From Peptoniphilus rachelemmaiella (lineage in GTDB: Bacteria; Bacillota; Clostridia; Tissierellales; Peptoniphilaceae), in the NCBI RefSeq assembly GCF_943169845.1, contig NZ_CALPBW010000008.1, forward strand, positions 1 through 64,000: a stretch of 64,000 bases of DNA. Direction: 5' to 3'. Made by a program: the position numbers and the translations under genes. Shown here piece by piece: positions 39,543 through 57,286 of the stretch; positions within the stretch are counted from its first letter, which is position 1; each line of letters begins with the position of its first letter. The notes beneath the pieces are model-generated. The model was not told the DNA's origin, made no database searches, and saw only the letters and a list, made by a program, of their open reading frames with translations.

Positions 39543-40049
39543 ATGGACTACGGCAATTATGCACAAATTCGGCCCCTGGATGTGGCAAACGGCCCGGGCA
39601 TCCGCGTGTCGGTCTTCGTCACCGGCTGCAGTCGAAAATGCAAAAACTGTTTCAACGAACTCTATCAGGATCCCGCCTACGGCGAGGTTTGGACTGACGA
39701 GACCACTGAAACATTAATCAAATATTTAAGCCGCCCGGAGGTTGCGGGCCTCACCCTTTTAGGCGGCGAACCCATGGAAAACACCTGGCTACGACGGGTT
39801 TTAGCGGATGTAAAAAAACAAATCCCGACCTCCGTGTGGATTTACTCCGGCTACACCTTCGAAGAGATCCTCGACGATCCTGAAAAAGTGAAGCTCCTCG
39901 AATCCTGTGACGTTCTCGTGGACGGGCCCTTTGTGGAGGCGAAGAAAAATTTGAAACTCGCCTTTCGGGGCAGCGAAAACCAACGCATCTTGGACATCCC
40001 CAAGAGCCTGAAAGCCCATACAGCCATAAAAAAAGAGAGAGACGAGTAA
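39543..40049 (+). CDS. nrdG: anaerobic RNR activating protein (radical SAM)
   Basis: A 168-residue radical-SAM activase that makes the glycyl radical on NrdD. The CX3CX2C cluster motif is CSRKCKNC within FVTGCSRKCKNCFN, and LTLLGGEPME is the SAM-binding GGE motif. Its ATG follows the nrdD stop with no gap and no good ribosome site, so translational coupling is likely. The stop codon lies in the loop of the terminator hairpin. Confidence 0.97.
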   Translation: MDYGNYAQIRPLDVANGPGIRVSVFVTGCSRKCKNCFNELYQDPAYGEVWTDETTETLIKYLSRPEVAGLTLLGGEPMENTWLRRVLADVKKQIPTSVWIYSGYTFEEILDDPEKVKLLESCDVLVDGPFVEAKKNLKLAFRGSENQRILDIPKSLKAHTAIKKERDE

Positions 40050-40064
40050 GTCCCTCTCTTTTCT
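40031..40064 (+). terminator. terminator of nrdDG overlapping the stop codon
   Basis: AAGAGAG-A-GAC ... GTC-C-CTCTCTT (40033-40060) then TTTCTT. The nrdG TAA is in the loop. Confidence 0.75.
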
Positions 40065-40098
40065 TATGGAAAAAATTGGTTCTATGTCAACCATTGGG

Positions 40099-40126
40099 GA
40101 GTCTAGTGAAAACTAGGCTCCTTTTT
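40099..40126. terminator. hairpin inside ISL3 end with T tract
   Basis: GAGTCTAGT-GAAA-ACTAGGCTC then CTTTTTG. It reads as a terminator on the plus strand and may insulate the cargo from nrdDG transcription. Confidence 0.6.
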
Positions 40127-40146
40127 GTTTTCCTAAAAGCCATTCA

Positions 40147-40521
40147 TCACCGGTCGTTTGAACAAACGAAGAGTAATTTGGTTTGAAAATGATGAAAGTT
40201 GCACATCCCAAAGGCGACACGCTTCGTCATCTGTTTGCCCTTGGCGGCAAAGGAAAGGGGGGCTTCAAAGCGCACCCCCCAATCCTTGCAATCATAGCGT
40301 GTCTTCTTAATCCGCAGAAGCACGTGCTTTCGGCGCATCGGTGCATCCCGAAGCACCTGCTCCCGGTGATCATGGACCCAGGCATGGGACGAACCGCAGT
40401 GTGGACAAACCAAATCATGAACGGGCTTACAATCAATGGTAATCAGGCGCTTTTCTTCTGAAGCGCCGGTCACCTCGACATCTTGGATTCCTAAAAGTAA
40501 TGTGGTAATATTGTTTTGCAC
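40147..40521 (-). pseudogene. ISL3 transposase with large in-frame internal deletion
   Basis: A 124-residue frame. Residues 1-about 98 are the N-terminal zinc-binding and helix-turn-helix entry region of an ISL3 transposase (CPHCGSSHAWVHDHR with two Cys; the usual later CxxC is reduced to C plus W in DCKDWG). It then jumps to the C-terminal KRVAFGMCNFHHFQTKLLF. About 300 residues with the DDE catalytic core are missing. The frame is kept across the junction. The GTG start at 40521 has a GGGGG site. It cannot transpose, but could still bind the IS ends. Confidence 0.85.
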
Positions 40522-40607
40522 TTGTTTGGCCCCCTTTATTTTATTGTGGTGATTTAATTTTAGGCGATAGGGAAAACAAGTGCTATCTTTTTGCATAAAA
40601 ATATCCA

Positions 40608-41162
40608 TTGAGGAGGTTACTCCCCAATGGATGTTATAGAGCCAATTTATACAATTATTTTAAAGAAAATGATATTGAGAAAGTTTCTCTTGCATTTGGC
40701 GCATCAATTGGCGGAGTCGTGTTATTGGAATTATTAAAATACAAGGATATAAAGATAGCTAAAGCCTTATTTGAGGGATGTAGCCTATGTCAAAATGCGA
40801 GTGTTTTAGAGTTTATTATAAGAAGTATTTTTCTTTATGAACGGGAAAAAGCAATTAAAAATAATGACTCAGCTAATAGAAAAATTATAAGCATATACAG
40901 AGAAACAATGGGTCGAATGATGGTTGAAACTTTAATCAGAATAGATAAACAAAGCATTAAAAACATCTGTCATGATTGTGCATTTGTGGATCTTCCAAAG
41001 TTATCAGAAGCCGAACAAAAGATGTGCATATTCTGTTATGGTTTTAAAGAAATTAATTTAAAATATGCGAAGAAACTGACTTTTAACGAATATCCATACG
41101 CAACATTAAAAATATGGGATGGGCAAAACCATTGTACAAAGATGACAACGAATATAGAATAG
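40608..41162 (+). pseudogene. alpha/beta hydrolase truncated at its 5' end by the ISL3 element
   Basis: The native reading begins at 40644, right at the outer end of the ISL3 left repeat; the 12 codons before it come from the IS. Compared with the full-length paralogue at 41871 about 65 N-terminal residues are gone, including the oxyanion segment. The rest keeps the nucleophile elbow FGASIGG and aligns as YFKENDIEKVSLAFGASIGG against WLKEHKIEKVDLLYGCSMGG. The end ...WDGQNHC may hold the base His. The product is probably inactive. Confidence 0.75.
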
Positions 41163-41222
41163 TATTGCCAAATGATAAAATCTGAGATTGATTAAAACAT
41201 GTTGTTGAAAGGGATGTTAGCA

Positions 41223-41840
41223 GTGAATGATAAAAGCAATAAAAAGTTTTGGGATAAATTCGCCAAGCTGTACGCTCCTTTTATGAAGAAGGATAAAGGA
41301 GTTTATGATAAAGTTTGTGAGTATATTCGTCCTTACTTGAATAGAAATATGAACGTACTTGAACTTGCTTGCGGTTCAGGTCAATTATCCTTTAACCTTT
41401 CAAAATATACGAAAAGTTGGAATGGGACTGATTTTTCGGAACAAATGATTTTAGAAGCAAGGAAGCGTGGAGAATACGAAAACCTTACCTTTGAAGTAGC
41501 CGATGCAACATCATTAAATTTTGTAGATGGAGAATTTGATTGTGTGGTCATTGCTAATGCACTTCATATAATGCCAAATCCTGATAAGGCAATGATAGAA
41601 ATATACAGAGTATTAAAACCTAATGGTATTTTGTTTGCTCCTACTTTTTTATGGAAAGAGGGAAAGCAAAGTAAATTCAAGAAATGGCTAATGTCCGTTG
41701 CGGGATTTAAGATGTATCAAGAATGGAATAAAAAACAATTTAAAGATTTTATTGAGAAGCATGGATTTTCAGTAGTTGAAATGAATTTGATACATGGAGG
41801 GCTTGCACCCATAGGCGTTATGATTGCTTATAAAAAGTAA
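41223..41840 (+). CDS. class I SAM-dependent methyltransferase (UbiE/Methyltransf_11 type)
   Basis: A 205-residue methyltransferase. The SAM motif I is VLELACGSGQ, then TDFSEQMILEARKR (motif with acidic ribose ligand), and VVIANALHIMPNPDKAMIEI and RVLKPNGILFAPTF are motifs II-III. The substrate is unknown; relatives methylate small molecules or lipids. GTG 41223 is chosen because AAGGGA lies about 8 nt upstream; in-frame ATGs at 41199 and 41214 lack one. Second gene of the AT-rich island. Confidence 0.82.
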   Translation: MNDKSNKKFWDKFAKLYAPFMKKDKGVYDKVCEYIRPYLNRNMNVLELACGSGQLSFNLSKYTKSWNGTDFSEQMILEARKRGEYENLTFEVADATSLNFVDGEFDCVVIANALHIMPNPDKAMIEIYRVLKPNGILFAPTFLWKEGKQSKFKKWLMSVAGFKMYQEWNKKQFKDFIEKHGFSVVEMNLIHGGLAPIGVMIAYKK

Positions 41841-41870
41841 TATTAAAATTGGGATTTTGGAGGAGAGTTA

Positions 41871-42638
41871 GTGAACATACATGAGTTTGGAGCTGATAAA
41901 AATAAAATAATTGTGTTGATTCATCCTTCATTAGTCATGTGGGACTATTTTGAATACATTTTATCTATACTTAAAGAAGAGTATCATATTATTGTTCCTG
42001 CACTTCCCGGATATGATGAGGAAAATCCAAACGAAAATTTTACAAGTGTAGAAGAAATTGCCGATAATTTATTAGGATGGCTGAAAGAACATAAAATTGA
42101 GAAAGTTGATCTTTTGTATGGTTGCTCTATGGGCGGCTCTATCGCTTTAAAAATGTTCTCCAATCACGGAATTAAAATAAGGAACATTATTTGCGATGGA
42201 GCAATAACACCATATCAGCTTCCTTGGATTGTTACAAGAATGATTGCCATAAGAGATTTTCTTATGATTTCTATAGGTAAAATTGGAGGACTAAAGCTTC
42301 TTGAAAAATCATTTTCTACAGATGAATACAGCGAAGAGGAATTGAAGTATGTTGCTAAAGTCCTTAATTTTATTAGTTATAAAACGATATGGAGAACATT
42401 TGAATCTTGCAACAACTATGTTATGCCAAAGAACGTGTCAGAACATAGCGGTCGTATTCAATATTGGTATGGTGATAAAGAGTCTAAAGCCCGTGCATGG
42501 GATATCAAATATATGAAAACTTACTTTCCAAATACTGAGTTTATTAAATTTGAAAACATGGGACATGGTAGCATGGCAAGTCTTTATCCTGTGAAAATGG
42601 CTAATCAATTCAGAGATTTAATGGAAGTTAAGAAATAA
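41871..42638 (+). CDS. alpha/beta-fold hydrolase
   Basis: A 255-residue cytoplasmic hydrolase. IVLIHPSLVMWDYF gives the oxyanion turn (HPS in place of HG), ALPGYDEENPNE is a typical strand-turn, the nucleophile elbow is YGCSMGGS with Ser86, and the base His is in NMGHGSM near the C-terminus. GTG 41871 has GGAGGAG upstream. It is a paralogue of the truncated hydrolase at 40608. It follows the methyltransferase by 30 nt, so the pair is probably co-transcribed. Substrate unknown. Confidence 0.82.
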   Translation: MNIHEFGADKNKIIVLIHPSLVMWDYFEYILSILKEEYHIIVPALPGYDEENPNENFTSVEEIADNLLGWLKEHKIEKVDLLYGCSMGGSIALKMFSNHGIKIRNIICDGAITPYQLPWIVTRMIAIRDFLMISIGKIGGLKLLEKSFSTDEYSEEELKYVAKVLNFISYKTIWRTFESCNNYVMPKNVSEHSGRIQYWYGDKESKARAWDIKYMKTYFPNTEFIKFENMGHGSMASLYPVKMANQFRDLMEVKK

Positions 42639-42676
42639 AATAATTTGCCATTTTTGGAATTAAGGAGGTATGCATT

Positions 42677-43615
42677 GTGAGTGTTAAATATAAATTAACG
42701 GAATTTTTATTTCGTCATACTGTAAAACCTATGATGAAAAAAGCAATAAAAAATCCGGATGAATATTTTGCTAAACAAGAAAAGAAACAGAAATCTAAAC
42801 TCCCTCTTGAAAAACTTCATAAATCTTATGATTTTGAAGAAAAGTGTATAAGCGGAACTTTGTATTATGTCGTCAAACCAAAAAATAAAGTGGCAAATAG
42901 GCTTGTATTATATTTCTTTGGTGGTGGATATACCATTCCGGGAGATTCCGGTGATTTTGAGTTTGCTCAAGATATGGCTAATCAAAGTCAGGCTGAAGTT
43001 TGGCTTGTATGGTATCCGCTTTTTCCAAAAGCAACCGGCTTGCAAATTATCGACGCAGGTCTAAACGTTTATAGCGAGGCACTTAAGGTGTTTAATGCAG
43101 ATGATATCACATTTTTTGGCTTATCAAGCGGAGCAAGCCTTGCACAAAATATATGTTTGCATATTCTTGAAAACGACATGAGATTATCAATGCCAAAAAG
43201 ATTGATTATGCACTCGCCAACCTTTCGTATTCCTCCAACTAAAGAACAGATGAAAGAGATGGAGAGACTTGATAAGTTTGATTGCATTATTCCGGCTTGC
43301 TACATGAAAGAACAAGATCAAGCAATGCAAAGAATAAATTTAAATAATGTGGAATATATGAAATCGCCAATTGAGTATTCATGGAAAGGGCTACCTGACA
43401 TGTATATTATTTATGGTTCTCATGAAGTATTGATAGCAGAACTGCCTGAAGCAAAAGAAAAAGCTAAAATGGATGGCGTGGTTATGAAAACATACATAGG
43501 AGAAAGAATGATGCATACTTGGGCGGCGGCAGGATTTTTACCTGAGGCAAAGGAAGTAAGAAGAAATATATATGCCGTAATAAGGGGAGATAGAAATGAC
43601 GGCTTTCTCTTGTAA
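42677..43615 (+). CDS. alpha/beta hydrolase, HSL/acetyl-esterase-like
   Basis: A 312-residue esterase-like protein. The oxyanion motif that is usually HGGG reads FGGGYTIPGDS (81-91), so the first His is replaced by Phe. The nucleophile elbow is FGLSSGAS with Ser150. The acid is expected in YIIYGSHEVLIAEL (Glu in place of Asp possible) and the base His in MMHTWAAAG. GTG start with AAGGAGG 7 nt upstream. The N-terminal 45 residues are basic and helical. Different family branch from the other two hydrolases. Confidence 0.8.
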   Translation: MSVKYKLTEFLFRHTVKPMMKKAIKNPDEYFAKQEKKQKSKLPLEKLHKSYDFEEKCISGTLYYVVKPKNKVANRLVLYFFGGGYTIPGDSGDFEFAQDMANQSQAEVWLVWYPLFPKATGLQIIDAGLNVYSEALKVFNADDITFFGLSSGASLAQNICLHILENDMRLSMPKRLIMHSPTFRIPPTKEQMKEMERLDKFDCIIPACYMKEQDQAMQRINLNNVEYMKSPIEYSWKGLPDMYIIYGSHEVLIAELPEAKEKAKMDGVVMKTYIGERMMHTWAAAGFLPEAKEVRRNIYAVIRGDRNDGFLL

Positions 43616-43670
43616 TATTCTACAGGTAGTTTTCAGAAGAAAAGTGGATATTGTGTGGTGATTGATAATT

Positions 43671-44168
43671 ATGTATATGACGATACTGCTTGCCGTTATT
43701 ATGATGATTGGATTGTTTTTATTGCTGTGGGCAGGTGTTGGATTTATTCAAAATAAAAAATTCTTTTCTTCGTGTCCGAAAGAAGTGTTTGATGTTATTA
43801 AACCAAAGAAAAAACGCTTTCGTGGTCAAAATTTAGTTGGATGGGTATTAGCTATTATTGCAATACTATTCATGGGAAGTCCAATTGTCATTGGTGCATT
43901 GGATGGTATTCAAAACAACTTTACTTTCATTCAGTTTTTTAATAGATTTCTAATGATGCTTCTTTTGCTGAAAGCCTTTGATATTGTATTTTTTGATTGG
44001 ATACTTTTGTGCAATCGAGGTTTTAGTTTTTTTGAACATTATTATCCGGAAGTGGTAGATAAGCTTAGTCCTAAACTCTTTGGATATAACAAAAAGGAAC
44101 ACATTATTCAAGTGTTATTTATGATTATCGGATCGTTAGTCATTGCATGGATATGCACATTATTTTAA
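43671..44168 (+). CDS. small multi-pass membrane protein of unknown function
   Basis: A 165-residue protein with four likely transmembrane helices: residues about 5-25 (LLAVIMMIGLFLLLWAGVGF), 55-75 (LVGWVLAIIAILFMG), 90-110 (FNRFLMMLLLLKAFDIVFFD) and 145-163. A basic loop (KPKKKRFRG) lies between the first two. No family is recognised. The ATG 43671 is preceded by GGTGAT; a TTG three codons upstream is the alternative. It sits between an esterase and a methyltransferase gene in the island. Confidence 0.7.
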   Translation: MYMTILLAVIMMIGLFLLLWAGVGFIQNKKFFSSCPKEVFDVIKPKKKRFRGQNLVGWVLAIIAILFMGSPIVIGALDGIQNNFTFIQFFNRFLMMLLLLKAFDIVFFDWILLCNRGFSFFEHYYPEVVDKLSPKLFGYNKKEHIIQVLFMIIGSLVIAWICTLF

Positions 44169-44202
44169 AAACTAAAATCAAATTAGTAGGAGGTGTTTAT
44201 AC

Positions 44203-45021
44203 TTGGAAAAAATAGAAATGCAAGAAAAAATAAAACCTGTTTTGAACGGTGCTGCGGAAACAATGCTTCAGAGTTTTTATGCAAGAGCACAATATTCCAA
44301 GAGCAAAAGACATAAATTTTATGATGCCAAAGCGGTGGAATTGGTTGAAAAAATTGATTACGATTTTACTGCCGCCACAAATGATTCCCTTATGAGTTAT
44401 GGCGTGATTGCAAGAACACTTGTATTTGATGAACTGGTAAAAGAGTTTATTGACGAAAATCCAAATTGTACAGTCGTAAATATTGCTTGTGGACTTGACA
44501 CGAGATTTTATCGAATGGATAACGGAAAAATCACATGGTACAACCTTGATTTGCCTGAAACCATTGAAGTAAGGAATCAGATTTTTGCAGAATCCGGCAG
44601 AGTTTCAAATATCGGTATTTCAGTAACGGATTCGGCGTGGGCAAAAGAAATAAAAGCAGATGGGAACATTCTGTTTATCATTGAGGGCTTGTCAATGTAC
44701 TTGACAAGGGAAGACAATGCCAAAATGCTCAGAATTATTCGAGAGAATTTTGACAATGCTTATGTTCTTATGGAGTGTCTGTCAAAAAGGTGGGTGGCGA
44801 AAGAAAATGTTGAAAAGTCCATACAAAAAACAGGAGCAAAATTTATATTTGGAGCGGATTCCTTTGATGATATTAAGGATATTGCAAGAGGCTTCCGTAG
44901 TGTAAAGGATGATGATATTACGAGAGGGATGTCTGCTATATTTCCAGTGCTTAAGCTTATTAACTGGTTGCCAATTGCTCACAAGCTATCACAGAAAATC
45001 TTGATATTTGAGAAAGTGTGA
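44203..45021 (+). CDS. class I SAM methyltransferase, leucine carboxyl methyltransferase (LCM) family
   Basis: A 272-residue methyltransferase of the LCM/Ppm1-like family. TVVNIACGLDTRFYRMD is the SAM motif, YNLDLPETIEVR holds the acidic ribose ligand, and FIIEGLSMYLTREDN is the family's third motif. Bacterial members O-methylate small-molecule or polyketide carboxyls; the substrate here is unknown. The start is TTG 44203 with AGGAGGTG 8 nt upstream (ATG at 44218 is the alternative). Last gene of the AT-rich island. Confidence 0.85.
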   Translation: MEKIEMQEKIKPVLNGAAETMLQSFYARAQYSKSKRHKFYDAKAVELVEKIDYDFTAATNDSLMSYGVIARTLVFDELVKEFIDENPNCTVVNIACGLDTRFYRMDNGKITWYNLDLPETIEVRNQIFAESGRVSNIGISVTDSAWAKEIKADGNILFIIEGLSMYLTREDNAKMLRIIRENFDNAYVLMECLSKRWVAKENVEKSIQKTGAKFIFGADSFDDIKDIARGFRSVKDDDITRGMSAIFPVLKLINWLPIAHKLSQKILIFEKV

Positions 45022-47375: not shown

Positions 47376-47550
47376 AGCCAATAGTATCACCTTTCGCTCT
47401 TTCTATTTTTAAGAATGTTACGAATTTATCTAATTCTATGAACTAGTATACAAAAAAAACCATCGCTTGAAAAGCCTTATTCCACGATTTTCCCGACTTT
47501 TTCTCCCCGTCCTTTTCTGCTATGATGTTTTTATGAAGGAGGAGAGGCAC

Positions 47551-49455
47551 TTGGCAATCGTATCGGCACAAGGTTTGGAGAAGACTTTTTACATCGACCC
47601 TATTTTAAAGGACGTGGGGTTTTTAATCGAAGCAGGCGAAAAAATCGGCCTCATCGGAAACAACGGCAGCGGAAAAACCACCCTCATGGCCATGTTGGCT
47701 GGAGAACTCACGCCGGACGGGGGAAGTATTTCCACCACCAAGGATTTGGAGGTGGGCTATTTGGCCCAACACGTGGCCGTGACCGAAGGGGCCAGCATAT
47801 ACGACGAGTGCATGGCCTCCTTTCAAGCGGTAATCGAACTTGAAGAAAAGCTCCGCGCCATGGAGGTGGAAATGGCCCATCTGGAAGGCGAGGCCCTGGA
47901 AGAGCACATCGCCCGCTACCAGGTGTTGGTTGATCGCTACGAAAAAAGCGGCGGCTACAGCCGGGAGAGTGCCGTCACCGGCGCCCTGCGCGGCCTGGGT
48001 TTTTCCGAAGAGGAAATGCATATGCCGGCGGAAAATCTTTCCGGGGGCCAAAAATCTCGCCTGGCTCTCGCCAAACTCCTTCTCCACGAGCCGGATCTCC
48101 TTCTTTTAGACGAGCCCACCAACCACCTGGACATGGATTCCATCGCCTGGTTGGAAAAGTTTTTAAAGGCCTTTAAAGGCGCCGTGGTGGTCATCAGCCA
48201 CGACCGCTACTTTTTAGACGCCATTGTGGATCGCATTCTCTTTTTAAAAGACGCTGCCCTGAAAAGCTATCAGGGAGACTACACCAATTTCGTCCGCCGC
48301 AGACAGGAAGAGGAAGATCAAATGCGCCACGCCTACGTCATGCAGCAAAAGGAAATTAAGCGCCAAGAAGAAATGATCAAGCGCTACGCCTCCTGGAACC
48401 GGGAAAAAAGTGTTCGGGCCGCAAGAAGCAAGCAAAAGCAATTGGACAAAATGGAGCGTCTGGACGATGTGAAGGGCGAAAAAAATCTTCTCCTCTCCTT
48501 CGCCCCGGCCACGGAAAGCGGCCGCGACGTGCTCCATATCGAGCATCTCTCGAAGTCCTTTCCCACAAAGCCCTTGTTCGACGACGTCACCTTTCCCATT
48601 TACAAAGGGGAACGGGTAGGGCTTATCGGCCCCAACGGCATCGGAAAGAGTACCCTCTTTAAAATCATCATGAATGAACTTGCCCCCACATCCGGCGAGG
48701 TGCAAATGGGAAAGGGCGTGACCATCGCCTATTTCGATCAGGAAATGAAGACCCTGGACGAAAACAAAACCGTGGCGGAAGAGCTCTGGGACCGCTACCC
48801 GAAGCTGGACCGCTTTCAAATTCACGCCTACCTGGCCCGCTTCCTCTTTACCGGCGACGATTTGGACAAGCGCATCGGCGATCTTTCCGGCGGGGAAAAG
48901 GGGCGTTTGTCTCTTTTAATCATTATGCTCTCAGGCGCCAATTTCCTTCTCCTCGACGAGCCCACCAATCACCTGGACATTGAAAGCAAGGAATCCTTGG
49001 AGGCGGCGCTGAAGGACTACACGGGCACCATCCTTACCATTAGCCACGACCGCTACTTCCTGGACCGGGTGGCTACGAAAATCGTCTGCCTCTCCGAGGA
49101 GGGCACCTTTATGGTGGACGGCGACTACACCTATTTCCTGAAGAAGTGGGAAGATGCCCACAAAGTGGAGGAAGAGGAAGAGGAGATTACCAAGACCCAA
49201 ATCGTAAAGGAAAAGAAGCGGTCGCGGGAGGAACAAAAAGAAGCCCGCCGGCGAAAAAAAGCCCTGCGAGACACGGAGGCCGAGATCCACGCCCTGGAGG
49301 CGGAAATCGAAGCCATGGACGCCACCTTAGCGGATCCCGCCACCTACGACGACCACCGGGAAGCACTGGCGCTTTCCCAAAAGCGGGACAGCGCCCAAGA
49401 GGAATTAGACGCCCTTTACGACGAATGGTTTGCCCTCTCGGCGGAAGAGGAATAA
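47551..49455 (+). CDS. ABC-F family ATPase (YdiF/Uup type)
   Basis: A 634-residue soluble protein with two ABC domains and no membrane part. Walker A motifs are GLIGNNGSGKTTL and GLIGPNGIGKSTL; signatures LSGGQKSRLALAKLL and LSGGEKGRLSLLII; Walker B LLLDEPTNHLD twice. The linker between them and a C-terminal coiled coil (residues about 540-634, very Glu/Lys-rich) fit the Uup/YdiF branch that acts on ribosomes. TTG 47551 is chosen since GGAGGAGAGG ends 3 nt before it; an ATG six codons upstream overlaps that site. Confidence 0.93.
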   Translation: MAIVSAQGLEKTFYIDPILKDVGFLIEAGEKIGLIGNNGSGKTTLMAMLAGELTPDGGSISTTKDLEVGYLAQHVAVTEGASIYDECMASFQAVIELEEKLRAMEVEMAHLEGEALEEHIARYQVLVDRYEKSGGYSRESAVTGALRGLGFSEEEMHMPAENLSGGQKSRLALAKLLLHEPDLLLLDEPTNHLDMDSIAWLEKFLKAFKGAVVVISHDRYFLDAIVDRILFLKDAALKSYQGDYTNFVRRRQEEEDQMRHAYVMQQKEIKRQEEMIKRYASWNREKSVRAARSKQKQLDKMERLDDVKGEKNLLLSFAPATESGRDVLHIEHLSKSFPTKPLFDDVTFPIYKGERVGLIGPNGIGKSTLFKIIMNELAPTSGEVQMGKGVTIAYFDQEMKTLDENKTVAEELWDRYPKLDRFQIHAYLARFLFTGDDLDKRIGDLSGGEKGRLSLLIIMLSGANFLLLDEPTNHLDIESKESLEAALKDYTGTILTISHDRYFLDRVATKIVCLSEEGTFMVDGDYTYFLKKWEDAHKVEEEEEEITKTQIVKEKKRSREEQKEARRRKKALRDTEAEIHALEAEIEAMDATLADPATYDDHREALALSQKRDSAQEELDALYDEWFALSAEEE

Positions 49456-49482
49456 AACGGCACAGATGTGTCGTTTTTTTAT
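49454..49482 (+). terminator. terminator of the ABC-F gene
   Basis: AAACGGCAC-AGAT-GTGTCGTTT followed by TTTTATTT, right at the stop codon. Confidence 0.88.
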
Positions 49483-49635
49483 TTAAATCGAAAAAACAGA
49501 CCCTGAGCAGGAGAAAAGAGAAAAAATTTATTTTAATGGTATTCACTTTCCCTTTCTTCCCTTTTTCTTCCCGTTCTCATTTTCAACATCCCGCTATTTT
49601 CACGCTTCGCCTTTTTAATCCACATTTCCTTCACA

Positions 49636-49808
49636 GTATACACAGATCTATCCACACGCCACCGCCCTTATTCACGGGATTTTGAAAAGTTATCCACCTT
49701 ATCCACAGGCTTATGCACGTTTTCCCGAAATCACCTTCCGGAATGGACATAATCTCTAAGATCTGTCTATTTTGTGGGATTTGTCACCATTCTGCCTCTT
49801 TATGCACT
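49636..49808 (+). other. cluster of seven DnaA-box-like 9-mers
   Basis: Same-strand 9-mers compared with TTATNCACA: GTATACACA (49636), CTATCCACA (49648), TTATTCACG (49668), TTATCCACC (49690), TTATCCACA (49699, perfect), TTATGCACG (49711) and TTATGCACT (49800). All but the perfect one have a single mismatch. Three are packed within 30 nt. The density suggests real DnaA binding, either as an origin-like or titration/regulatory cluster. No dnaA, dnaN or gyr gene is in the window. Confidence 0.7.
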
Positions 49809-49857
49809 ATTTTTCGCTTTCCTTACTTATTCTCATTCCCGACTTTACATGGGCAAA

Positions 49858-49885
49858 ACAAAACCGCAGCCTGTTTCGCTGCGGT
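49858..49885 (-). terminator. terminator after tsaD
   Basis: On the minus strand ACCGCAGC-GAAACAG-GCTGCGGT is followed by TTTGTTTTG. Confidence 0.88.
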
Positions 49886-49892
49886 CATTTTT

Positions 49893-50888
49893 TTATTCCA
49901 GACCCAAATTGGGATCGGCAAACACCGAGCCCGCCTCGCCTTTTAAGTGGCTGTAGTAGCCCACCGAGGCGATCATGGCGGCGTTGTCGGTGCAGAGGAC
50001 AGGATCCGGGTAGTAAATGGCCACGCCCTCTTTCTCGCCCCGGCTTTCCATGGCACCGCGAAGGCCGGAATTGGCGCTGACCCCGCCGGCGAGGACGATG
50101 GTCTTCTCCCCGAGCTTTCTTGCCAGACGGAAGGATTTTTCCACGAGGACGTCGATGACGGCGGCCTGGAAGGAGGCAGCCATGTCCGCCACGCGGATTT
50201 CTTCGCCCTTTTGCTTCGCCTGATTTAATTCGTTTAACACGGCGGTCTTAAGGCCCGAGAAGCTGAAGTCGTAGCTGCCCGCCTCAAGCATGACCCTTGG
50301 AAGGTCGTAGGTCTCCTCGCCTTCTTTGGCCAGCTTGTCGATAATTGGCCCGCCGGGGTAGCCGATGCCCATGGCCCGGGCCACTTTGTCGAAGGCCTCG
50401 CCTGCGGCGTCGTCCCGCGTCTTGCCGTAGAGGGTAAAGTCCACGTAGTCGGTGACGTGAATCAAATAGCTGTGGCCCCCGGAGACGATGAGCCCGACAA
50501 AGGGCGGCTCCAGATCCTTGTGGGTCAGGTAATTGGCGCAGATGTGGCCGCGAATGTGGTTCACCCCCACAAAGGGCTTGTGGTTCGCCAGGGCCAGCCC
50601 CCGCGCCGCCGTGAGCCCGACGAGGAGAGCGCCGATGAGCCCGGGGCCGCGAGTGGCGCAGATCAGGTCCACATCCTCCATGGTAATTCCCGCCTCTTCC
50701 AAGGCCAGATCCAGCATGGGCAAAATGGCGGAGACGTGTTTTCTGGATGCGATCTCCGGCACCACGCCGCCGAAAAGCCTGTGAATTTCAATTTGTGATG
50801 AAATCATATTGGACAAAATCTCTCGTCCGTCTCGCACGACGGCCACGGAGGTTTCGTCGCAGGAAGATTCCACGCCCAGTGTCAACAT
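49893..50888 (-). CDS. tsaD: tRNA N6-threonylcarbamoyladenosine transferase TsaD
   Basis: A 331-residue ASKHA-fold enzyme that moves the threonylcarbamoyl group to A37 of tRNA. GVESSCDETSVAVV at the start, the metal motif VNHIRGHICANYL (two His), and LIVSGGHSYLI are complete. The last residues LGLE are normal. The ATG is 1 nt from the rimI stop with AGAGGTGG upstream. Final gene of tsaE-tsaB-rimI-tsaD. Confidence 0.97.
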   Translation of the reverse strand: MLTLGVESSCDETSVAVVRDGREILSNMISSQIEIHRLFGGVVPEIASRKHVSAILPMLDLALEEAGITMEDVDLICATRGPGLIGALLVGLTAARGLALANHKPFVGVNHIRGHICANYLTHKDLEPPFVGLIVSGGHSYLIHVTDYVDFTLYGKTRDDAAGEAFDKVARAMGIGYPGGPIIDKLAKEGEETYDLPRVMLEAGSYDFSFSGLKTAVLNELNQAKQKGEEIRVADMAASFQAAVIDVLVEKSFRLARKLGEKTIVLAGGVSANSGLRGAMESRGEKEGVAIYYPDPVLCTDNAAMIASVGYYSHLKGEAGSVFADPNLGLE

Positions 50889-52684: not shown

Positions 52685-55600
52685 CTAGCGTCGTGTGATA
52701 ATGACATCCTCGTCAAAGCTTCCATACCCGGATCCTTCTGTAATCACAGTATGTGACGGTAATTCTACGCTTTTCAATCTCTTATTTAGTTTAAAGGCAC
52801 CATCCCCAATTTTTGTTACAGAATCGGGAATTCGCAAAACCCATAGGTCATTGTCATAAAATGCAGTTTCTCCAATCTCAGTTACCGTGTTCGGTATGGT
52901 TAATTCACTTAATATATTAGTACTGAATGCACCTCTCTCAATAACTTCGAGATTGCTCGGCAATCTTAGTTCGACAAGACTGTTCTTCCAAAATGCGAAT
53001 TCCCCTATACGGGTAACTGAATCCGAAATGTCCAGACTTCTCATTCTTTTATTAAAGGCAAAGGCTCTATCCCCAATCGTTACGATTGATCTGGGAATAT
53101 ACAACTCTGTTAGATCATTCAACTCAAATGCGTAGGCACCGATCGCGAGCTCTTTCCCTTCCATCTCCGCATCGTAGTCAGGCAGTGTTAACTTCGTTAT
53201 TCCGCTCTGATAGAATGCCTCCGACTCGATTCTTTCAACGGAATCAGGGATGGTCAGTTCTCCTATTGTCGTGTCAGAATAATCATCTCCCTTAAAGGTG
53301 TATTTTTCAATTACCGTCATCCGATTTGAAATTTTTACCTTTCTTAACGGGTTATAACTGAAGGCGCTATCGCCCACTCTTTCAACGGAATCAGGAAGAA
53401 TCGCCTGCGCCAGTTTATTTTGTCGGAATGCACCGTCTCCAATCTCAATAACCGATTCGGGGATATTAACCCGTATCAATTGATTTCCTGCAAAGGCATC
53501 CTCTCCAATGGTATGAAGGCCATTAGGCAATCCAATCGATTGCAACTTATTCTGCCTAAATGCATCCTTTTGTATTTCTTCAACTGTTTCAGGGATGGTC
53601 ACTGATGTCAACACAGGTCTCTCCGTGTTCCACGGAGAAAATGCACTGTCGCCGATGATCCTGACCTCTACACCTGCTATTTGACTCGGGATGTTCACCC
53701 TTGTCTTTTCGCCTATATATTGAACGATGGTTCCCGTTGAACGATCAAATCTATAATCGCCTACAGTGACCACGTCCGGCTCTTTAGGTTCATCCGGATT
53801 AGGTGCGGGCGGATTCGGCGGTTTAGGTTCGCCCGGATCAGGTACGGGCGGTGTCGGTGGGTTCGGCGGCGTGGGTTCATCTTCTTGTTTGTCTTGAATT
53901 TTTTGAATAATACTTTCCAAGCTTTCAATCCATGTATTGACCTTTTTATTTGATGCTGCCGCCTTTTCGTCGTTTGACCAATCCCCATAATTGTTTCCTA
54001 TGGCATACACGCGGGACTGCGTTTCTATTTCTTTTAAAGCATCCTTATCCGTCTGATCAATCTTTTGGTATGCGGCCGTCCGTCTCAGCGCCTTTGCTTG
54101 CTCTAACAGCCGAACAAGTTCATTTAGTTTTGAAGTTAATTGATTGTATAAACCCTTTACTTGATCCAGAGAAACGTCCAGTTTTTTCATGGTCGCTTGG
54201 TATTTGCTCGGCGTTCTGTTTGCCTTATTTTTTGCATAAAGCACTGTGTCTTTTGCTCTGGCTTTTAACGTATCGATTTGCTTGATCGACGGAGACTTTT
54301 GTGTCTGTTTAAAATCCGCTCTCTCTTCAATCGCTTCGATTTTAGCCAAGTACTCTTCTATCGCCTTGATCTTCTTGTCCAGTTGTTCTGCCTTATCGGC
54401 CGTTAACGCCGTTTCTCTTTTTAGCTCATAGATTTGTTCTTCCAACAATGTGTGGTGACCCTGATAAAGTCCTGCAAGATCGAAATCCGCATACATGTAA
54501 ACCCAAGCCCCGTGGCTCATCATTCCATACATATCAAGATCATTCAATTTTTCTTTTCCATTTTGGTAGCTTTGTTTTATATCGATGTGTCCACGATAGA
54601 TGGCTTTATGGCGTAAGCCTCCATCAAGCCATACCGGACGTGTTCCTAGCAATAATAGGGAGAATTCCGCACCGAGATCAGCATTTGTTTCTAATTGACC
54701 CTCTAATCTTTTGTGCTTCTTTTCCTCTAAATCCTTTTTTGTAATAGCGATCATTTTAAATCGCTTACCGACATCTCGATTGCTTATATGCACATCTTTT
54801 TCTTGTTGAACCTGTTGGATTAGATAGACTGTCTCGTTCTCAAACTTTTTATCGAAAACATTGACATTTACAGATGAACTGTCCGTTAACTGACTTTCAC
54901 TAATCAGTTCCACTTCTAATTCTCCGTAAACATTGATATAAACTGCTGCCAATAATGCCAGCATATCGCTAACTTCGCCAATAGAACCTTTTGTAGATTG
55001 CTCAATTGCCACCTGCCCTCCGGGGTACAAGGGAATTTTAGCATAACCTAAAAAGTATTTATCCTTAGAAAAATTATTCGTTTGTTTTAATTTCTTCGTT
55101 ATAAAGTCATTTGATTTTTCTTGACCCAAACTCCTGAGAAAGCGCGTAAAATTAACCTTTTCATTGAACTTTAGATTCAACTTCATGTCCATTTGTTGCC
55201 GTTCCGCCAAACCGGCATGAAGTAATTTTAGTCCTTCCCTCGAATGCTGAATTTTTACATCGGCAAGTGTTTGCGCCAAATAGTTATAAAAGATCTCCCC
55301 ATTTAAAGTCGTTTGGGCTGAGTCTCCGTCCATCGCGTTGTTGATGTTTGTGCCGCCGGCTACATTCAGCGCCACCTCGGAATAAGCCTCATGGCTGACG
55401 TCTTTTCCCATCACCCAATTGAATGCTTTTTGTGCCCATTCCCAGTATTCCTTTGGCAATTCTTTTAATTTTACCGAATTGGCCATTCCACCATGGATCG
55501 ATCCCCAGTAGCTAACTTTGGTGTCATTCAGTTTTTTCTCGTGTTCAAAACCTTTTCCTTTTAATTGCAGTTTGCCACCGTGCAGAGAATTGACATCAAT

Positions 55601-57286
55601 AGTTTCTTTTCCCTTAGGAGACGGCGGCAATTGGATGAAATCTTCTGCGTTACTCTTTTCCACGAGCTGTGCTGTCTTTTGACCTTCCGCGTCCATTAAC
55701 TTATCAGCGGGGCTACCCACTAGCTGGTTGCTTGCAAAGTCAACATGTGCCAAGGCCTCCTGAATGCCTTCTTGATCAATAAAAAGCTCAATCTCTCCGG
55801 CATTAGTATTGGAAGTAGCGCTAATGTTTAGCGCTTTATCCGCTAACAACTCGTCAAACTTGGCGTCCGTCACCGCATAAAATACTTTGTCAACTTGGAT
55901 CGGATCGTTGTACTTATTATCGTTCTTAACATCCCGGTGCGCGACGGTATTTTTATCCGAAATCTTAAATGACTGTTTCACGCCAAAATCTACCATGACA
56001 ATGGGGTGGGCGTCTGTTTTTAAAGATTCCTGAATCTTCTTAAAAACATCCGATGTCTGGTTAACACCCAAATAATATTTTCCTTTAGTTTTAGAAAATA
56101 TCATCTGAATATCTTTCGGTTGATTGCTTCCTTTCTCTTTTGGAACAACGACCAAGCTGTCTTTTACCGTAATTTTTTTCGACTCTTTTTCTAAGAAGAA
56201 GGTTTTCCGAACAAGTTCATTGCGGTCTGTAACAGCATAAACATCGACTTTGTTTGAACCGATGGCGTAATCCTTAAGATTCAAAGTAAAGTTTTTCCCG
56301 TTTACCGTTACATCGACCTCTTTCGCCTCTTTTTTTGACGGATCGATGATTCTTGCTCGAACCGACTTTAATTCGTCTCTGGAAATTAACTTCCCTTTCG
56401 CCTGAACGGCATCTTCTTGCGTCTTCAAAGTGTATGAAGTATCGAGATTTTCAATAACGATCTGCGACTCATTCAACTTTTTACCAATGTCTTTTAAGCT
56501 ATCGGGTTCTTTTTCTCGTTTAATCTCTTCTTCAATTTTTTGTTCAGGTGAGCCCGGCTTTTTCCCCGGATTCGGTTGAGGATTTGGAGTATTTCTCCCA
56601 TTGGATTCATCACCCGGAGTAATTATTACATTAGGCACAAATTCAGGAACCTTCGATGTGCCCTTTCCGTAGCGACTTAAAGCATTGTAAAGTGCCACAA
56701 AAGCATCTTGTCTTGTTGCCGGCTCATTAGGAAGTATGCTCTTGTTAATTCCACTATTATATCCAATGATTTTTAACTCCAGCGCCCATCGAATCCAATC
56801 AAAAGGCCATTGTGCCTTGGCGACATCTTCGGGTTTTAGATCTTCCTTCGTTAAAGCAACCAACATCTTCAATACTTCAGCATTGGATATGTTCTTTTCA
56901 GGCTTGAATGTTTTGTCCGGATACCCATTCACCATGGTGACATCATTCTTTGCATTCTTATTTTTAGCTGCAAATTGAATAACACCTTTTGCCCAATGGT
57001 TTTCGATATCACTGAAGAGAGCAGGTTCTTGCTCCATGAGCTTAGCTGCATCTTTTTTTCCTAAGCTATAAACGATGATCTTAGTAATTTCACTCCGCTT
57101 AATCGGGCGTTCCAAAGCCAAATCGCCATTTTCATAGCCCTCAATAATGCCTTCATGTTTCAAATAGTTAATTTTTTCCTGAACGCTTTTCTGCTCACTA
57201 TCCGAAGGGAAAGCTAAAGCCAGTGCATTGCTTGACGAGACCGCAAGCATGAGAAAAGCTAAAAACAATGAAAGTATTTTTTTCAT
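52685..57286 (-). CDS. SLH-anchored surface protein with C-terminal BspA-type leucine-rich repeats
   Basis: A 1533-residue secreted protein. Signal peptide 1-24. Three SLH domains span about 30-210 (INYLKHEGIIEGYENGDLAL, SDIENHWAKGVIQFAAKN, RQDAFVALYNALSR) and would bind pyruvylated wall polymer. A Pro/Asn-rich linker follows, then a large beta-rich middle part, a coiled coil at about 950-1130, a PNPP/PDP-rich linker to about 1175, and about ten BspA/LRR_5 repeats of the form SVTIPETVEEIQKDAF to the end. Such repeats bind host or bacterial partners. The gene is visibly AT-richer than its neighbours. The ATG follows AAAGGAG; the leader is long and the promoter has a G7 tract. Confidence 0.92.
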   Translation of the reverse strand: MKKILSLFLAFLMLAVSSSNALALAFPSDSEQKSVQEKINYLKHEGIIEGYENGDLALERPIKRSEITKIIVYSLGKKDAAKLMEQEPALFSDIENHWAKGVIQFAAKNKNAKNDVTMVNGYPDKTFKPEKNISNAEVLKMLVALTKEDLKPEDVAKAQWPFDWIRWALELKIIGYNSGINKSILPNEPATRQDAFVALYNALSRYGKGTSKVPEFVPNVIITPGDESNGRNTPNPQPNPGKKPGSPEQKIEEEIKREKEPDSLKDIGKKLNESQIVIENLDTSYTLKTQEDAVQAKGKLISRDELKSVRARIIDPSKKEAKEVDVTVNGKNFTLNLKDYAIGSNKVDVYAVTDRNELVRKTFFLEKESKKITVKDSLVVVPKEKGSNQPKDIQMIFSKTKGKYYLGVNQTSDVFKKIQESLKTDAHPIVMVDFGVKQSFKISDKNTVAHRDVKNDNKYNDPIQVDKVFYAVTDAKFDELLADKALNISATSNTNAGEIELFIDQEGIQEALAHVDFASNQLVGSPADKLMDAEGQKTAQLVEKSNAEDFIQLPPSPKGKETIDVNSLHGGKLQLKGKGFEHEKKLNDTKVSYWGSIHGGMANSVKLKELPKEYWEWAQKAFNWVMGKDVSHEAYSEVALNVAGGTNINNAMDGDSAQTTLNGEIFYNYLAQTLADVKIQHSREGLKLLHAGLAERQQMDMKLNLKFNEKVNFTRFLRSLGQEKSNDFITKKLKQTNNFSKDKYFLGYAKIPLYPGGQVAIEQSTKGSIGEVSDMLALLAAVYINVYGELEVELISESQLTDSSSVNVNVFDKKFENETVYLIQQVQQEKDVHISNRDVGKRFKMIAITKKDLEEKKHKRLEGQLETNADLGAEFSLLLLGTRPVWLDGGLRHKAIYRGHIDIKQSYQNGKEKLNDLDMYGMMSHGAWVYMYADFDLAGLYQGHHTLLEEQIYELKRETALTADKAEQLDKKIKAIEEYLAKIEAIEERADFKQTQKSPSIKQIDTLKARAKDTVLYAKNKANRTPSKYQATMKKLDVSLDQVKGLYNQLTSKLNELVRLLEQAKALRRTAAYQKIDQTDKDALKEIETQSRVYAIGNNYGDWSNDEKAAASNKKVNTWIESLESIIQKIQDKQEDEPTPPNPPTPPVPDPGEPKPPNPPAPNPDEPKEPDVVTVGDYRFDRSTGTIVQYIGEKTRVNIPSQIAGVEVRIIGDSAFSPWNTERPVLTSVTIPETVEEIQKDAFRQNKLQSIGLPNGLHTIGEDAFAGNQLIRVNIPESVIEIGDGAFRQNKLAQAILPDSVERVGDSAFSYNPLRKVKISNRMTVIEKYTFKGDDYSDTTIGELTIPDSVERIESEAFYQSGITKLTLPDYDAEMEGKELAIGAYAFELNDLTELYIPRSIVTIGDRAFAFNKRMRSLDISDSVTRIGEFAFWKNSLVELRLPSNLEVIERGAFSTNILSELTIPNTVTEIGETAFYDNDLWVLRIPDSVTKIGDGAFKLNKRLKSVELPSHTVITEGSGYGSFDEDVIITRR

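Follow-up and report, generated by a model that had tools for sequence, protein, structure and literature searches.

A cluster of DnaA boxes beyond the 3′ end of tsaD in Peptoniphilus rachelemmaiella is probably a site outside oriC that binds ATP-DnaA and restrains the initiation of replication, either in the manner of datA or by titration, and it lies at the position of the gcp/ydiF cluster of Bacillus subtilis. The B. subtilis cluster has been known already; what is new is a six-box module, with steps of about 9, 42/43, 12, 9, and 11 nt, that follows tsaD in at least 64/117 genomes of the phylum. The recurrent place, direction, and spacing of these boxes across many Firmicutes suggest an old control site restraining replication and not a second origin.

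DnaA boxes in the gap after tsaD

The window, which is the whole stretch of 64,000 nucleotides that was analysed, is contig C8 of a 1.91-Mb genome in 41 unjoined contigs, and dnaA is located on another contig (C1). The boxes lie in an intergenic gap toward which an ABC-F gene and tsaD converge with their 3′ ends (Table 1), and the size of 437 nt given for this gap in a preliminary description of the DNA has been confirmed. NCBIfam models identify TsaD, RimI, TsaB, and TsaE (all on the minus strand), ABC-F (plus), and Rex (minus) around the gap. The AT-rich stretch remarked on to the left of the boxes is found at 49466–49550, where the AT content is 72% compared with 49% in the window. Two other identities for the gap region have been rejected, since there is no Rfam match to a known structured RNA at E up to 0.1 and no match among 72,556 plasmid records that would indicate a plasmid origin.

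Two further features of the window have been observed. The stretch at ~40000–45000 has a GC content of 32–36% and a GC skew near +0.2, with ~53% GC elsewhere in the window, and is possibly acquired DNA. A predicted secreted protein of 1533 aa is encoded on the minus strand at 52685–57286; inspection by eye finds an S-layer-homology-like N-terminus and a leucine-rich-repeat-like C-terminus.

When a DnaA box is defined as a 9-mer with at most one mismatch to TTATNCACA, the gap contains nine boxes, every one on the plus strand. Seven of these are the same-strand 9-mers within 173 nt that had been reported before (starts 49636, 49648, 49668, 49690, 49699, 49711, and 49800), including the one perfect 9-mer at 49699, and the two further boxes are located just beyond that span, at 49616 and 49827. 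The place of the box 12 nt after box A is taken by TTATGCACG or TTATACACG in 8/8 genomes of the genus. Variants of a flanking element have also been observed on both sides of the array, 244–264 nt apart, in 9/9 loci (the eight genus genomes and G013), and ATTCTCATT has no match in the 10 kb around oriC.

Table 1. Features of the tsaD gap and its surroundings in the window
Feature	Sequence	Position	Strand	Basis and remarks
ABC-F ATPase gene, start codon uncertain		47467..49455	+	NF000355
Terminator-like hairpin 3′ of ABC-F gene		49454..49477	+	Hairpin scan
Intergenic gap, 437 nt, between convergent 3′ ends of ABC-F gene and tsaD		49456..49892		ORFs, NCBIfam names
Flanking element, left copy	GTTCTCATT	49573..49581	+	Paired variants in relatives
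Six-box module F-E-D-C-B-A		49616..49707	+	Template score 42 of 48
Box F	TAATCCACA	49616..49624	+	9-mer scan
Box E, degenerate, two mismatches		49627..49635	+	Six-box template
Box D	GTATACACA	49636..49644	+	9-mer scan
Box C	CTATCCACA	49648..49656	+	9-mer scan
Extra box within C-B spacer	TTATTCACG	49668..49676	+	9-mer scan; in 4/8 genus genomes
Box B, abuts box A	TTATCCACC	49690..49698	+	9-mer scan
Box A, perfect; sole perfect box here	TTATCCACA	49699..49707	+	9-mer scan
Extra box, 12 nt after box A	TTATGCACG	49711..49719	+	9-mer scan
Outlying box	TTATGCACT	49800..49808	+	9-mer scan; at most one mismatch in 2/8 genus genomes
Outlying box-like	TTATTCTCA	49827..49835	+	9-mer scan
Flanking element, right copy	ATTCTCATT	49829..49837	+	Paired variants in relatives
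Terminator-like hairpin 3′ of tsaD		49862..49886		Hairpin scan; scores on both strands
tsaD (gcp)		49893..50888	-	TIGR03723, TIGR00329

The tsaD gap holds several boxes clustered beyond chance and away from dnaA and oriC. Chance and base composition are ruled out by shuffling: 2000 shuffles of the gap have a mean of 0.51 boxes and a maximum of 4, with nine reached in 0/2000, and in 60 dinucleotide shuffles of the whole window there are never more than three same-strand boxes per 173 nt, compared with the seven observed. The entire window contains 48 boxes against a shuffle mean of 34.0, a number attained in 2/100 shuffles. As this window-wide count is only mildly raised, the signal lies in the clustering. 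A genome-wide search for same-strand TTATNCAC pairs within 31 nt yields five matches, three in the tsaD gap and two upstream of dnaA, and the reversed form of this same-strand pair pattern has no match genome-wide.

Spacing and spread of the six-box module

The distances between the starts of same-strand boxes are 9, 11, 12, 21, 32, 42–43, 51–52, and 63–64 nt and similar sums, and they resolve to one module with the order F +11 E +9 D +12 C +42/43 B +9 A. A six-box template scores 41–45 at 23 tsaD loci, seven of which are in the window's genus, while on reversed sequences (137 loci) its maximum is 31 and its mean 25.0. An alignment of 25 rows shows conserved columns at the boxes but not in the long spacer; box E has one mismatch in several relatives. 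The module of G015 (L013) is seemingly inverted as a unit, with a template score of 38. Bacilli score 24–37, with 16/25 loci above the reversed-sequence maximum of 31, and what they have in common is less the complete module than parts of it, mainly the abutting pair and the 42/43 step.

The spacings have been compared with a null in which the boxes are re-placed at random inside each cluster over 2000 rounds. The order set has one locus per genus, and 23 of its 50 loci carry four or more boxes. Spacing 9 is present in 20/23 of these loci (random mean 3.5; 0/2000), spacing 12 in 13/23 (3.1; 0/2000), and spacing 42–43 in 13/23 (4.4; 0/2000). Because the order loci had themselves defined the module, this result is after the fact, and the independent test is that of Bacilli loci absent from the sequence model R1 described below. 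With at least four boxes in 22/24 Bacilli loci, spacing 9 is found in 19/22 (random mean 4.4; 0/2000), spacing 11 in 10/22 (4.0; 6/2000), spacing 12 in 11/22 (4.0; 1/2000), and spacing 42–43 in 16/22 (6.0; 0/2000). Spacings of 14–19 are depleted in both sets, with 0 in the order against 12.1 at random and 2 in the Bacilli against 14.4.

R1, a sequence-only model, was built from 25 loci, of which that of Kroppenstedtia is the sole one from Bacilli. Its score in the window genome is 64.0 bits at 49613–49711, and the next best match, between dnaA and dnaN, has 23.4 bits. A match within 3 kb 3′ of tsaD is present in at least 50/101 Bacilli genomes, in at least 48 of them within 700 bp, and these counts are lower bounds since they use 135 matches, down to E 8.0e-5. 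Among the matches listed for Bacilli, the orientation relative to tsaD is the same in 50/50, and the match beside tsaD is the genome's best in 42. The phylum sample consists of 119 genomes, with TsaD in 117; it overlaps the Bacilli sample by at least three genomes and includes the window's own genome, part of the R1 training set, and possibly other training genomes. In this sample at least 64/117 genomes have a match within 3 kb 3′ of tsaD, at least 61 within 700 bp. Among the matches listed, the orientation is the same in 63/64 and the match beside tsaD is the genome's best in 51; 20/21 matches of at least 46 bits and 28/38 of at least 38 bits adjoin tsaD. The remaining strong matches are other box clusters, some being oriC. 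The module is missing or below threshold in many lineages, and in one R1 scan all 20 genomes have a match somewhere at E up to 0.1, some of them without boxes at tsaD.

R1 matches away from tsaD have been characterized at 20 sites, with 30/39 of the flanking ORFs scanned. An S30AE (hpf/raiA-type) gene adjoins 3/20 sites, L220 (G041), L221 (G050), and L226 (G147); a phosphoribosyltransferase or double-zinc-ribbon (comFC-like) gene adjoins 4/20, L210, L213, L214, and L215; and an SBP_bac_3 solute-binding protein gene adjoins 7/20, among them L211, L217, L219, and L222. These flanks hint at further conserved DnaA-box clusters beside genes of the three kinds. At L223 (G095 C4:153883), the match lies between a SPOUT methyltransferase (rlmH-type) gene and a trypsin/PDZ protease gene. 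In B. subtilis, a further cluster adjoins yydA, which corresponds to rlmH.

Among close relatives, TsaD is present in 61/61 genomes (the window's own and 60 others), of which 59 enter the box count, as the tsaD stop was not placed in G016 and G027. At least four boxes within 600 nt 3′ of tsaD are found in 8/8 genus genomes, in 5/27 other genomes of the same family, and in 19/24 genomes from the order's other families; the site is therefore kept throughout the genus, widespread in the order, and frequently absent from the family. The preliminary description had named loss of the boxes in relatives as grounds for rejection, and such loss is seen within the family but not in the genus or in most genomes from the order's other families. 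A scan of species genomes covers 80 named loci, 76 of which have at least 300 nt after tsaD. Four or more boxes occur in 13/76, including Alkaliphilus, Thermovorax, two Brevibacillus, Kroppenstedtia, Amphibacillus, and Paucisalibacillus, and the named Lachnospiraceae, Clostridium, Oscillospiraceae, and Paenibacillus loci have fewer than four each. Given this frequent loss or sub-threshold state across lineages, the cluster is dispensable, not essential. In 26/80 named loci (L035–L112), many of them Lachnospiraceae, less than 2.6 kb of contig sequence follows tsaD, perhaps owing to an assembly-breaking repeat after tsaD in those Lachnospiraceae and other loci.

The recurrence of the spacing bears on passive titration alone, in which the cluster would be a sink determined by the number of its boxes, with order and spacing irrelevant beyond local cooperativity. 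The B. subtilis clusters have been described as sequestering DnaA (PMC11019786), and E. coli DnaA prefers box pairs 2–3 bp apart, corresponding to starts 11–12 nt apart (PMC11317965), so that the short spacings, those of abutting boxes included, could arise from pairwise cooperativity alone. More weight therefore falls on the 42/43-nt step and on the fixed orientation. The step is longer than contact between neighbours would span, yet it recurs in the order (13/23) and in the Bacilli (16/22), and the orientation is nearly invariant among the matches listed (50/50 and 63/64). We consider passive titration alone a possible account of the site, and a doubtful one.

Counterparts and chromosomal position

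The gap 3′ of TsaD (gcp) is also the position of a B. subtilis cluster, and we take ydiF, on its other side, to be an ABC-F gene. The Bacillus precedent of titrating clusters, named in the preliminary description, is thus closer than had been noted, and the titration or regulatory reading offered there is supported by this known cluster at the same position. The region “downstream of gcp; downstream of ydiF” is listed among the eight strongest DnaA regions of B. subtilis, the same eight being found in vivo, and the gap contains ten DnaA sites bound in vivo and in vitro (PMC4447404). According to the same source, the Kd is 0.15 μM with ATP and 0.33 μM with ADP, and recovery at 55 nM is 16-fold higher with ATP-DnaA. 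The ATP preference has been ascribed there to sequence, orientation, spacing, and flanks, with too few regions to define a rule (PMC4447404). A limited literature search found no account of the gcp/ydiF cluster being conserved in species other than B. subtilis, which is weak evidence of absence.

Both sites are outside oriC, contain many boxes, and are flanked by the 3′ ends of tsaD and of an ABC-F gene (ydiF in B. subtilis). They differ in that binding has been measured in B. subtilis, whereas the window site is known from sequence and is likened to it by position. Few boxes of the window site are consensus, and the pair search gives one cluster outside oriC in the window genome compared with six in B. 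subtilis. The homology of position strongly supports DnaA as a predicted ligand of the window site.

The six B. subtilis clusters outside oriC go back to Okumura et al. 2012, as cited in reviews. Deleting all six together is reported to cause early initiation (PMC13220808, PMC5295017); this phenotype required all six deletions, and one review states that clusters with a significant role have yet to be identified (PMC5295017). B. subtilis DnaA has also been reported as overproduced ~10-fold without over-initiation (PMC13220808). From these genetics, as told in reviews of which one doubts a significant role, we infer that the window site may restrain initiation.

The B. subtilis clusters have been likened to datA (PMC4585315) and called analogous to it (PMC5742627). 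The E. coli datA locus is likewise a non-coding box array outside oriC, in which box spacing is described as important (PMC4585315), and fixed spacing is what the random-placement test finds for the tsaD-linked boxes. datA promotes the hydrolysis of DnaA-bound ATP, and the window site is likened to it by its box array. The number and place of the boxes differ from those of the tsaD site, and datA requires an IHF site, set between its boxes at a fixed spacing, whereas B. subtilis is reported to be without IHF and Hda homologues (PMC13220808). A cluster near oriC in Streptomyces coelicolor, likened here by its description, also lies outside oriC and represses untimely initiation (as cited in PMC4585315).

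The opposite effect would be expected of a DARS-like site, which reactivates ADP-DnaA and promotes initiation. E. coli DARS1 and DARS2 are described as short box arrays with conserved positions (PMC4585315), a likeness shared by the site after tsaD. They differ from it in promoting initiation, in their three-box core, and, for DARS2, in the need for Fis/IHF. Since the B. subtilis counterpart prefers ATP-DnaA by the account of PMC4447404, and deletion of the six clusters is said to give early, not late, initiation (PMC13220808, PMC5295017), we regard a DARS-like role as improbable.

The chromosomal position has been measured in 22 genomes, chosen for having an R1 match and dnaA on one chromosome-size contig. 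The distance from the match to dnaA is 3.8–36.4% of the chromosome, with a median of 14.4%, and 20/22 matches lie within 25%. Since tsaD may be origin-proximal for other reasons, this position is simply consistent with a role that would rely on early duplication. The same proximity, together with the fixed orientation relative to tsaD, could point to an architectural role, in which bound DnaA would contact oriC or another partner and help arrange the origin domain. The distance is confounded by tsaD's own position, however, the orientation may just be inherited with tsaD, and the module is inverted in G015, so that such a role also seems unlikely.

For the restraining site preferred here, the following sequence of events is proposed. 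DnaA, mainly in its ATP form, would bind cooperatively to the boxes and form there an ordered oligomer whose shape is set by their spacing. The site, found mostly in the half of the chromosome nearer the origin, would be doubled early in a round of replication, and the doubled site would hold extra DnaA and perhaps inactivate DnaA there. Less free ATP-DnaA would then be available to oriC, and the next start would be delayed.

Transcription, origin, and meaning of the site

Regulation of the transcription of tsaD or the ABC-F gene through bound DnaA has a parallel in other B. subtilis clusters, which are located upstream of genes (Table 1 of PMC4447404). In the window, the boxes are located 3′ of both genes. 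Terminator-like hairpins end the two genes (three in the region, compared with a shuffle mean of 0.6), so that the array sits between two transcription ends, and these hairpins and the convergent 3′ ends argue against promoter control. The region has a single, weak promoter-like match against a shuffle mean of 0.8. We consider a transcriptional role very unlikely.

The statement in the preliminary description that the window contains no replication-initiation gene agrees with the single Bac_DnaA_C match in the whole genome, on C1. DnaA and DnaN on C1 are confirmed by NCBIfam, and rnpA, recF, and gyrB, named by eye from the ORFs, adjoin dnaA-dnaN. Four boxes with at most one mismatch are present between dnaA and dnaN and thirteen just upstream of dnaA. 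GC skew keeps its sign around the tsaD gap, and the gap has neither of the two marks of oriC, an initiator gene nearby and a GC-skew switch. The longest perfect DnaA-trio run is 1 in the tsaD gap, 2 in the dnaA-dnaN gap, and 1 upstream of dnaA, in a scan that is weakly discriminating. The box cluster with the AT-rich stretch to its left had left room for a second or unusual replication origin in the gap, which is extremely improbable given the canonical origin region already at dnaA on C1 and the lack of both an initiator gene and a skew change.

The oriC of the dnaA-dnaN region is likewise a box cluster for DnaA, and a 42-nt step is also present 3′ of dnaA in 9/16 dnaA loci. The two differ in the six-box template, which scores 27–35 in 16 dnaA loci compared with 41–45 at 23 tsaD loci, and a copy of oriC has been rejected on this basis. 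Among the dnaA loci, one (L145) beats the reversed-sequence maximum of 31.

Returning to a control site outside oriC, a bolder and tentative extension is that the tsaD-linked cluster may be an ancestral Firmicutes control element predating the split of Bacilli and Clostridia. Its geometry (9, 42/43, 12, 9, 11) would then encode a scaffold on which a single defined ATP-DnaA oligomer forms and which actively switches the DnaA state or passes DnaA to an inhibitor, making it a Gram-positive counterpart of datA and not a passive sink. The Bacillus clusters may be simple sinks or structured regulators, a question that the phylum-wide set of sites addresses. With many sites at one position and a recurring spacing, the question of ATP preference becomes a testable sequence rule, and the site provides a concrete target for replication control in little-studied anaerobes.
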